Source: Henriciella sp. (GTDB lineage: Bacteria > Pseudomonadota > Alphaproteobacteria > Caulobacterales > Hyphomonadaceae). From it: a stretch of DNA of 64,000 nucleotides. The stretch covers positions 620,001 to 684,000 of the forward strand of contig NZ_JAPYRE010000001.1 of the NCBI RefSeq assembly GCF_029936995.1. Direction: 5' to 3'. This document shows positions 4,364 to 8,129 of this stretch, in pieces (the stretch's first letter is position 1; every line of letters begins with the position of its first letter). The notes under the pieces are model-generated. The model saw only the letters and a program-made list of their open reading frames with translations, had not been told where the DNA came from and ran no database searches. The position numbers and the translations under genes are program-made.

Positions 4364-5896
4364 ATGAAAGACGTCATTGAAGCGCTGGAAGCCAAACGCG
4401 AGGAAGCCCGGCTCGGCGGCGGCCAGAAACGGATCGAGCGCCAGCACGAAAAGGGCAAGCTCACCGCGCGTGAGCGCGTGGCCCAGCTGCTTGATGAAGG
4501 CAGCTTCGAGGAAACCGACATGTTCGTGGAGCACCGCTCCCATGATTTCGGTATGGAAGAGCAGCGTATCCCCGGCGACGGCGTTGTTACCGGCTATGGC
4601 ACGGTGAATGGCCGTCTCGTCTACGTCTTTTCCAAGGACTTTACCGTCTTTGGCGGTTCGCTCTCCAAGGCGCAGTCGGAAAAGATCGTGAAGGTCCAGA
4701 AATCGGCGGCCAAGAACGGCGCGCCCGTGATCGGCATTTTCGATGCTGGCGGCGCGCGCATCCAGGAGGGCGTCGACAGTCTCGCAGGCTATGCCGACAT
4801 CTTCATGGAAAACGTGCTCTCCTCCGGCGTCGTGCCGCAGATTTCCGTCATCATGGGTCCGTGCGCGGGCGGGGACGTCTATTCCCCGGCCATGACGGAC
4901 TTCATCTTCATGGTGAAGGACACCTCCTACATGTACGTCACCGGCCCGGACGTGGTGAAGACCGTCACAAATGAAGAGGTCTCCCACGAGGACCTTGGCG
5001 GCGCGCGCGTCCATGCTGCGAAGTCCGGCGTCGCCGATGGCGCCTTCGAGAACGATATCGAGGCGCTGGTCCAGATGCGCCGCCTGATCGACTTCCTGCC
5101 GCTGTCCAACCTCGAAAGCCCGCCGACCCGGCCGAGCTTCGATGATCCCGAGCGGATGGAGCCCTCTCTCGACACGCTCATCCCGGACAATCCTAACGTC
5201 CCCTATGACATGAAGGAGCTGATCGAGAAGACCGCCGACGAGGGCGACTTCTTCGAGATCAGCCCGGATTTCGGCGCCAACATCATCATCGGCTTTGGCC
5301 GCATGGAAGGCTCCACGGTCGGCTTCGTCGCCAACCAGCCGATGAGCCTCGCCGGCGTGCTCGACATTGACAGCTCGCGCAAGGCGGCGCGCTTCGTGCG
5401 CTTCTGCGACTGTTTCAACATCCCGATCGTCACCTTCGTGGACGTGCCGGGCTTCATGCCGGGCACCAAGCAGGAATATGGCGGCCTCATCAAGCATGGC
5501 GCGAAGCTGCTCTTCGCCTATGCCGAGGCGACCGTGCCGAAAGTCACCGTCATCACGCGCAAGGCCTATGGTGGCGCCTATGATGTGATGAGCTCGAAAC
5601 ACCTGCGCGGCGACATGAACTATGCCTGGCCGACCGCGGAAATCGCCGTGATGGGCGCCAAGGGCGCGGTGGAGATCATCTTCCGCAAGGATATCGACAA
5701 TCCGGAAAAGATCGCCGAGCACACAAAGATGTACGAGGACAATTTCGCCAACCCGTACGTCGCCGCGCGCAAGGGCTATATCGACGACATCATCATGCCC
5801 CACTCAACCCGCAAACGCGTCTGCAAGGCGCTGCGGACCCTGCGCAACAAACAGCTCGAAAACCCCTGGAAGAAGCACGATAATATTCCGCTTTAG
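4364..5896 (+). CDS. pccB: Propionyl-CoA carboxylase beta subunit (carboxyltransferase)
   Basis: A 510-residue carboxyltransferase subunit that transfers CO2 from carboxybiotin to propionyl-CoA, giving methylmalonyl-CoA. It has the two crotonase-like halves of the family: the N-terminal half with [15 protein letters not shown] and [13 protein letters not shown], and the C-terminal half with [21 protein letters not shown] and the [14 protein letters not shown] segment. The Asp in the last motif region is the usual determinant for propionyl rather than acetyl specificity; I infer propionyl from overall resemblance to PccB. It starts at ATG 4364. Its partner pccA lies 9.5 kb downstream on the same strand. 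A TIR-domain gene begins only 38 bases after the stop. Confidence 0.95.
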
Positions 5897-5934
5897 GGGA
5901 AATGGCGGAGAAATCAGAATATCGGTAGAAGCGC

Positions 5935-7293
5935 GTGAAGCACGACGTATTCATTTCTCACGCAAGCGAAGATAAAACGCCTTTCGTCAGAGAATTTGCT
6001 GCTGCTTTGGTCAGCAAGGGAATTCACGTTTGGTATGATGAGTTTTCGCTAAAGCTTGGCGACAGTCTGTCGGAGTCAATCGACCACGGATTGGCTCATT
6101 CGCAGTTTGGAATTGTGGTGCTCAGTCCAAGCTTTTTTGCGAAGAAATGGCCGAGGAGGGAACTGCAAGGTCTGGTCGCTCGACAAATGTCGGGTGATTC
6201 AAAGGTCATCATTCCCATATGGCATGGTCTCACATATGGGGATGTTCTCAAGTATTCGCCGCCGTTGGCTGATACGTTTGCTGCGAACTCTGCGGAAGGT
6301 GTGGAAGCTCTCACAGAGAAAATCATTCGAGAAATACGACCCACCGGCAGCCCACTTTCTGTGGCCCATGAAATATTGTCCTCTCACGGTCTGGAACTGC
6401 CGCCGCTGTCGGACATCTGGTGGATAAGCCTGATCGAACACAAAGAGAGAGAGTTCAAAGATCCGCATCTTAATTCGCTTTCGACGCCTTGGATGTTTCC
6501 GCTACCCAACCACAAGGATTGGACCTCGCAGGAAAGAGGAGAAAATATCGCATCGACAGCACTTCAACTCGATTGGATTGCGGAAGCGTGGGAGTTTGGA
6601 CCCCATCATCTGTCTCACCCGGATAAAGTGCACGATTTCATTCTGAAGTGGCCAGGTTTGTTAGACACCGTGCGACGGTATCCGGAAGTGCTGGCTATTT
6701 ATGCGCCGCAGTTGACTATTCCGGGATACGATAGCGGATTTGAGCAGCTATTTGATGAGCTACTCGAACCAGCAAATAAGTGTGCGTACGCCATGCCGGG
6801 TTACGGCGGCCCACCAGAAACCACAGATGGAAGACCTCCTCTTTGCGGTGAGCTCATTGCTTGGCGACATCCTACGTTCGGGAACTATTCTCCTGGGGAG
6901 TTGGCGAGCTCGTTCGTAAGTGCGCACACAGGCAATTATTATCGAGAATGGTACACTGGCATTCAATGCCTATTCTGGTTGCTTAGCAGCAGTTCTGAAT
7001 GGATGCCGGAAAATCTTAAGCAACAAATATTGACCGGGTTTCACGACAATCCCCTTATTTGGGAACATCGATTAGAAGTGGTTCATCGAAACAACGTGTT
7101 CGTTTCTGAGCTTTATTCGAAAACGCCGAGCAGATTTTCAATAACACGAAAGGTGAAGTCAGGGCTTGAAGATCTAGTCTCGGAAATGGTTGAGGACTTG
7201 GAGTTAGCCGACAGTGTTGAAGCTTTGTCAGACAGGTTTCTTAAAGGCGGCTTCATCCGTAGCTTCCATAAAGTCATGTATAATCGACGCTAA
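5935..7293 (+). CDS. TIR-domain protein with an unrecognised C-terminal region
   Basis: A 452-residue protein. Residues 2 to about 130 are a TIR domain: strand A HDVFISHASED, the BB-loop region VWYDEFSLKLGDSL (32-45), FGIVVLSPSFFAKKW, and Glu76 in WPRREL at the position of the catalytic Glu of NAD-cleaving TIR domains. The remaining 310 or so residues are rich in Trp, Pro and His, contain no motif I recognise, and show no obvious membrane segment. The likely start is GTG 5935. The base composition is clearly more AT-rich and the codon use looser than in pccB and the TonB gene on either side, which suggests acquisition. Bacterial TIR proteins often serve in phage defence by depleting NAD or making signalling nucleotides; that role here is inference. 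Confidence 0.85.
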   Translation: MKHDVFISHASEDKTPFVREFAAALVSKGIHVWYDEFSLKLGDSLSESIDHGLAHSQFGIVVLSPSFFAKKWPRRELQGLVARQMSGDSKVIIPIWHGLTYGDVLKYSPPLADTFAANSAEGVEALTEKIIREIRPTGSPLSVAHEILSSHGLELPPLSDIWWISLIEHKEREFKDPHLNSLSTPWMFPLPNHKDWTSQERGENIASTALQLDWIAEAWEFGPHHLSHPDKVHDFILKWPGLLDTVRRYPEVLAIYAPQLTIPGYDSGFEQLFDELLEPANKCAYAMPGYGGPPETTDGRPPLCGELIAWRHPTFGNYSPGELASSFVSAHTGNYYREWYTGIQCLFWLLSSSSEWMPENLKQQILTGFHDNPLIWEHRLEVVHRNNVFVSELYSKTPSRFSITRKVKSGLEDLVSEMVEDLELADSVEALSDRFLKGGFIRSFHKVMYNRR

Positions 7294-7422
7294 GCAGTAG
7301 CGTGGCGCCGAGCCTCATCCAGATTAAACCGAGCTGCACCATGCTCCTGGCGCTTGCGCCCCATGGGATGGGGAAGACCGGGGTGCGCGGAAAGGCCCAC
7401 GTGGGCTAAGCCTTGCTTTTTG

Positions 7423-7511
7423 TCCGATCTCCCCGGCGCAGGCCGGGGTCTCAGGCGATTGAGGCGCTCGGCTTGCGGCATGAGATCCCGGCCTGCGCCG
7501 GGATGATCGGA
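7423..7511. repeat. Palindromic intergenic repeat, copy 1
   Basis: Two inverted arms carrying CCCGGCGCAGGCCGGG: left arm about 7425-7455, right arm about 7479-7509 (seen there as CCCGGCCTGCGCCGGG), joined by a short centre. Each arm is itself nearly palindromic, so the unit could fold as a double hairpin, in the manner of REP/BIME elements. On the minus strand it lies downstream of the TonB receptor gene, and on the plus strand downstream of the TIR gene. Confidence 0.7.
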
Positions 7512-7907
7512 AATCCATCCCACCCCTCCAATCCTCACCCATACTCCCAACCATCCCATCGTCAGACAGGGCGGTCCGGACCGGCCGGGTGGCGGTGGGG
7601 TGTGAGAGTGACCGATGCTGCGGGCAGGGATGTAACGGCCCTGCCACAAGTGTTCCGGCGCCATGTGGTTCGCTAGGGACGCCGGGGCAGCCCCCGGTGA
7701 TTACTGTTTTCGGGCGGGCCGGAGAGGGACACCTTGCCGGCCAACACCTCTCACGGGCGCGTCCTGTTCGGGCGCTTACCAGCCACGCCGTAAGGCTGGC
7801 ATTACATCAGCGTTCAAACTGGACGCGCCCGGCCCTGTCATCTAGGGCAAGTTTTATAGCGCCAGGCGGAGCCGCCGTGGCGGTTTTCGTACAGGGAGTT
7901 TCAACAC

Positions 7908-7998
7908 CGCTCACCCCGGCGCAGGCCGGGGTCTCAGGGGGGGGGGAGCAGACGCAGCGGGTTGCCGCACAAGATCCCGGCCTTCGCCGGGATGAGCG
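7908..7998. repeat. Palindromic intergenic repeat, copy 2
   Basis: Same design as the copy about 480 bases to the left. The left arm (about 7908-7936) shares CCCGGCGCAGGCCGGGGTCTCAG with copy 1. The right arm (about 7971-7998) has AGATCCCGG and CCGGGATGAGCG, with one change in the core (TTCG for TGCG). A run of ten G sits in the spacer. The outermost bases CGCTCA/TGAGCG are inverted. Confidence 0.7.
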
Positions 7999-8129
7999 AA
8001 AAAAGACAGCCCTGAGCGTGATCCATCGCGAAGGCGAAGCCGCAGCGGGGATCAAAAGTAAGACAGCCCTGAGCCCGCTTCATGTGAGGCGCGAGAGCGC
8101 CGATACGGAAGCGAAGCCGGAGACTCTCC

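Follow-up and report, generated by a model that had tools for sequence, protein, structure and literature searches.

SpbK of Bacillus subtilis is a single-gene TIR NADase in which the phage portal protein YonE induces clustering and NAD+ cleavage; its N-terminal residues 1-94 form a four-helix bundle, and its TIR domain lies at the C-terminus (PMC12847820). Swarozyc is a portal-triggered NADase with a DUF4062 TIR-like domain and a C-terminal auxiliary domain described as HTH/winged (PMC13174449). Within the 64-kb stretch of DNA that we analyzed (hereafter the window), we found a whole gene (5935..7293, + strand) encoding a 452-residue protein in which an N-terminal TIR domain (residues 1-130) is followed by a novel C-terminal domain of ~320 residues. 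Like SpbK, this is one protein joining a TIR NADase (predicted here) to a sensor domain (a candidate here), but the order of the domains differs. It also resembles Swarozyc in being a single gene with a TIR-type domain, a C-terminal extra domain and a patchy distribution; however, its TIR domain is of the TIR_2 rather than the DUF4062 family, and its extra domain had no fold match among those listed, in contrast to the HTH/winged auxiliary domain. Given the difference in domain order from SpbK and in TIR family from Swarozyc, we place the window family in neither.

Thoeris ThsB and the SPARTA TIR-APAZ protein are likewise TIR-type NAD-processing modules of anti-phage systems, but ThsB needs ThsA and TIR-APAZ needs a short pAgo, whereas no partner gene recurs in the window family. 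TIR-APAZ chains present in the PDB library were not matched by the C-terminal domain profile (none better than E 0.3), and no pAgo was recognized by eye beside the window gene. The best PADLOC match of the window TIR domain was to PDC-S66, a candidate single-gene defense family (1.9e-56), but it joined only TIR residues 2-121 to profile positions 148-266 of 282, a placement implying that PDC-S66 carries its partner region ahead of the TIR and leaves no space for the C-terminal domain found here. We found no prior description of a family with this TIR and C-terminal domain in the open-access literature for the terms used. The family is a probable new single-gene TIR NADase defense with an unrecognized C-terminal candidate sensor. 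If so, this cross-phylum family would add to the few TIR immune systems that consist of one protein.

An earlier, sequence-only reading had reported a stand-alone TIR gene at 5935-7293, and the open reading frame is present as claimed. It begins with GTG, its N-terminus aligns with those of relatives, and an in-frame TAG at 5926-5928 makes this GTG the earliest start possible. The TIR domain (5935..6324, + strand), previously placed at residues 2-130, matched Pfam TIR_2 at 5e-21; TIR_2 and TIR were the only Pfam matches up to E 1, and DUF4062 was not among them. Glu76 (codon 6160..6162, + strand), proposed earlier as an intact candidate catalytic residue, aligns with the catalytic E208 of AbTir and is invariant in all 61 aligned relatives. 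The window protein is identical to AbTir at all eight positions where mutants inhibit NADase activity (S8, R19, D35, V61, W72, E76, R83 and Y107); among the 61 relatives, position 8 is Cys in 53 and position 107 is Tyr in only 14. W72 (6148..6150, + strand) aligns with AbTir W204, which is reported as required for 2'cADPR production. W96 (6220..6222, + strand), a Trp in 60 of 61 relatives, is a candidate for the adenine-stacking residue described for AbTir and SARM1 (PMC12847820). On these alignments, the TIR domain looks fully equipped for NAD+ destruction.

By sequence and by fold, the closest TIR domains were those of AbTir, BtTir, PdTIR and TcpB, which have the same catalytic residues, but these matches end with the TIR domain and none extends into the C-terminal domain. 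The proteins that supplied the nearest solved TIR structures have been investigated chiefly as bacterial effectors acting on hosts. This kinship would suit a TcpB/TcpC-type effector against eukaryotic hosts or predators, a role that we regard as very improbable: relatives often come from environmental genomes and metagenome-assembled genomes (MAGs), phage-defense genes are enriched near them, and the site that the window gene occupies is common to other defense-like cargo (both below).

The remainder of the protein had been described as having no nameable domain, and every Pfam, NCBIfam and PADLOC match up to E 1 indeed fell within residues 1-130. What did not stand was the impression of an oddity confined to one gene: the region is a conserved domain of ~320 residues found throughout a large family. 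We delimited this candidate sensor or regulator from alignment A2 and a structural model (residues 136-452; 6340..7290, + strand). Across 61 relatives, 48 alignment columns are invariant, 26 of them inside the C-terminal domain, and 18 columns of this domain remain invariant over 22 divergent members. Thirteen of these 18 are W, P, G, Y or Q and one is Asp, a composition that suits a recognition role better than an enzyme. Structure prediction and fold comparison gave a confident model with no recognized fold (pLDDT 90.1, pTM 0.87); independent folding of the domain is predicted with confidence. No PDB sequence matched its profile better than E 0.3, and no similar solved structure appeared among the fold matches listed. 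An HTH/winged fold was also absent among those matches, which need not exclude one. The domain showed no kinship with the partner domains of other TIR proteins at the loci compared (60 regions, best probability 1.3%).

We propose that the window gene encodes a self-contained single-gene abortive-infection protein pairing an NAD+-cleaving TIR domain with a C-terminal sensor, and consider this the likely explanation. The findings support the earlier suggestion of a single-gene anti-phage NADase. A TIR domain apparently equipped for NAD+ destruction, a conserved novel domain and a site that holds defense-like genes in related species together point to a probable anti-phage alarm that consists of one protein and is so far undescribed. 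In the corresponding model, of which we infer the NADase activity, the anti-phage role, C-terminal sensing, the trigger and activation by clustering, the N-terminal TIR enzyme would be kept inactive in the uninfected cell, and the C-terminal helical domain would recognize something that infection produces or brings about. The trigger would most likely be a phage structural protein, as the examples of SpbK and Swarozyc suggest. Its binding would cluster the TIR domains into a head-to-tail assembly that forms the active site, NAD+ would be depleted to ADP-ribose and perhaps cyclic ADP-ribose, and the depleted cell would no longer support the phage. Should this reading be right, a sensor domain with no similar solved structure among the matches listed would make the trigger and the mode of activation worth solving.

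When a 185-residue piece of the C-terminal domain was used as query, 16 shorter proteins matched at E <= 1e-5 among 104 candidates. Two of these carry a TIR domain, and the other 14 start inside the protein, one in the TIR part and 13 in the C-terminal domain (alignment starts at window residues 81-255), which suggests that these TIR-less proteins are cut or frameshifted genes. We rejected a C-terminal domain that occurs without a TIR domain, with two possible exceptions. Two TIR-less proteins, P0124 (318 aa, on a 1.1-Mb contig) and P0130, both start at window residue 141 and may be either frameshifted genes or a free-standing C-terminal domain.

Counting the source genome of the window, a full-length match was present in 1 of the 29 genus genomes (a second matched over the TIR domain only), in 2 of 385 genomes of the class (a third match was TIR only) and in 2 of 398 of the phylum. 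In the phylum of the relative at locus L006, 3 of 395 genomes had one, two of them already source genomes. In all 16 source genomes examined, the C-terminal domain occurs once, within an open frame of 447-490 residues that also holds the TIR domain. A tree of 21 members contains a fully supported clade (100/100) that mixes Nitrospinota, Bacteroidota and an alphaproteobacterium; neither alignment A2 nor this tree includes the L010 member, an intact 470-residue frame. Environmental genomes and MAGs are the source of many relatives. The single match among plasmids is on a mobilizable plasmid of Caulobacter, with an integrase gene 3 kb away, and searches of phages and viral contigs returned none.

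Composition also marks the window gene as atypical, in agreement with its earlier description as richer in AT than its neighbors. Its GC content is 48.9%, compared with 61.0% for the upstream pccB and 58.6% for the window. Its codon score lies below that of every one of 46 other window genes (z -4.2) and its GC3 is also low against the same set (z -2.8), a contrast inflated by the choice of genes scoring >20 in a codon-based gene caller, which favors typical genes. The core genes that flank the TIR gene here, and likewise at several of the other loci, might suggest a vertically inherited housekeeping protein that regulates stress or NAD metabolism, but given the single full-length match in the genus, the cross-phylum clade and the foreign codon usage we hold the chance of this to be minimal. 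We conclude that the gene was acquired horizontally and belongs to a patchy, mobile family.

At 59 other loci with a similar TIR domain, the attached regions fall into many unrelated groups located on either side of the TIR domain, which indicates that this TIR type is a swappable module. None of these attached regions joined the C-terminal cluster of the window family, and L010, represented there by the frame of an upstream TIR protein, was a loner in this clustering. The C-terminal domain is thus one stable partner of a swappable TIR module.

To score homologues for defense neighbors, we compared genes within 4.8 kb of the family gene at 15 of 22 loci with equal lengths elsewhere on the same contig (L007, L011, L014, L015, L016, L018 and L083 were left out for short contigs or lack of a control). 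At E <= 1e-10, the 128 neighbor proteins drew matches to 175 PADLOC families and the 123 controls to 27; these are counts of redundant families rather than of proteins, and the control matches, among those listed, were to broad families (mads, RtcR, PD-T4-6, Csa3, GlgB and similar). Single PADLOC scans of 19 of the 128 neighbors and one protein 5.8 kb away placed known defense families at 7 of 15 loci, a rate that is not unbiased because the proteins were chosen by eye: GajA and GajB of Gabija (L017), DarT and DarG of DarTG (L025), SIR2 (L019), a ThsB-like protein (L006), pAgo and a ThsB-like protein (L020), Fic and PDC-S15 (L009) and an AriA/NsnB-like ATPase (L010). AbiEii lies 5.8 kb from the L003 member. 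Six of the 20 singly scanned proteins had no PADLOC match (L003 9123, L005 9988, L010 7334, L012 7983 and 11336, and L023 11928), and L002, L004, L008 and L013 contributed no neighbor to these scans. The surroundings of L002, L004 and L008 appear to be of housekeeping type, like the window itself, which counts against the defense reading.

The absence of a nearby partner gene, claimed earlier for the window alone, holds more broadly. On reading the gene list by eye, with no profile scan, we recognized no defense gene elsewhere in the 64 kb, where the other genes appear housekeeping or metabolic, and among the relatives no neighbor family occurs at more than 4 of 21 loci. This lack of a recurring partner bears on whether the protein might be a signaling TIR, the sensor half of a Thoeris-like system, whose cyclic ADP-ribose isomer switches on an effector encoded elsewhere. 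Its AbTir-type TIR domain with W72 at the W204 position, the ThsB-like genes near two relatives and the further TIR protein directly before the family gene at L010 are in keeping with such a role, but without a recurring neighbor we consider it unlikely. The source genome also had no STALD or ThsA_Macro match, an observation of little weight as these controls were positive in only 0 of 14 and 1 of 14 genomes.

Less likely still is defense against plasmids or other mobile DNA with a C-terminal domain that senses nucleic acid. The patchy, mobile distribution and the pAgo and Gabija neighbors, at one locus each, would fit it, but no nucleic-acid-binding domain was detected in the C-terminal region by sequence or among the fold matches listed. 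The single-gene abortive-infection protein remains our preferred reading. Three arrangements near relatives were noted separately. At L010 (9509-11824), in a gammaproteobacterial MAG, the TIR protein directly upstream of the family gene is of a different kind (300-residue frame). In two Brevundimonas genomes (L012 and L013), the TIR gene lies within what seems to be a single conserved element, immediately preceded by a helix-turn-helix gene and immediately followed by a gene for a protein of 354/357 aa. Two alphaproteobacteria carry related large proteins near the TIR gene (L005 9988-13548, 1186 aa; L023 14233-18255, 1340 aa), possibly an unlisted defense family; that of L005 had no PADLOC match at 1e-10.

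The window gene had been placed between pccB and a repeat-rich stretch. The + strand gene pccB (4364..5896), a core gene present in 29 of 29 genomes of the genus, ends 38 nt before the TIR gene, and its 3' end borders a variable site. REP-like inverted and direct repeats lie at 7423-8122 between the TIR gene and a TonB-receptor gene, including an inverted repeat at 7423..7511 with near copies at 7907-8002. The foreign insert runs from the pccB stop to a shared flank, at about 5897..7548, with the TIR gene as its only called gene; its right border is approximate, since it was set by matches of 81-355 nt to L115 and L119 within DNA rich in repeats. Both pccB and the right flank are retained in six close relatives (L117, L121-L125). 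Five of these have 1.5-2.3 kb of AT-rich DNA straight after the pccB stop; L121 has 0.9 kb of normal-GC DNA, possibly an empty site, with matches to the flanks in other species. Among 14 post-pccB stretches, the window included, none of 91 pairs shared a match of at least 60 nt inside both.

The first 900 nt after pccB lay at least 8 GC points below pccB in 13 of 28 genomes of the genus (the window's included, one more being too short), versus 1 of 173 control windows taken 4-13 kb further on; cut-offs of 6 and 10 points gave 14 versus 5 and 11 versus 0, respectively. In other genera of the family, 7 of 25 met the 8-point cut-off (26 examined of 69 with pccB, one too short). Besides window 5894-7548, the hotspot loci are L104, L115-L120, L122-L126, L130, L131, L158-L160, L162, L164, L172 and L173, of which L104 and L120 fall below 8 points. 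Between 21 cargo proteins from 15 genomes and that of the window there was a single weak match. As a pooled set, in which the assignment of protein to match is inferred for all but the first, the cargo matched PADLOC Ppl, TIR-TM, dCTPase, the candidate families PDC-S31, S32, S45 and M49A and broad ATPase families, together with thymidylate synthase, deaminase, DCD, SMC/AAA, TIR, trypsin, DUF2971, TPR and HEPN domains. From these data, we conclude that, in this Caulobacterales family, the pccB 3' end serves as a hotspot for insertions and that several of its cargoes are defense-like.

Core and mobile defense hotspots are known from other bacteria (PMC10250203, PMC9122126); for the terms used, we found no prior description of the pccB site in the open-access literature. 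The differing AT-rich, partly defense-like stretches behind pccB argue that the window TIR gene is one item of rotating cargo. At the insert in the window, we found no integrase, no terminal repeats and no duplicated pccB 3' end. A second copy of ~112 nt of the pccB 3' end is present at L120 (G388:C4), 2.07-2.18 kb downstream, with a cargo gene on each side. It may be a relic of how insertion occurs, as expected for elements that integrate at gene ends or for recombination there. We put forward only tentatively, as something that may well not hold in full, the joint proposal that the C-terminal domain is a new fold that recognizes a conserved phage component directly and drives TIR clustering, that the family is a widespread, undescribed single-gene immune family, and that, within this Caulobacterales branch, it belongs to a large pool of interchangeable one-gene defenses delivered to a dedicated pccB 3'-end site. 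The site also offers a practical handle, in that cataloguing what follows pccB across a single bacterial family provides further candidate one-gene defenses. Inspection by eye showed a dGTPase-like gene at the pccB site of L160 and, judging from the N-termini, one recurrent family of ~281-286 aa at L130, L159 and L173.
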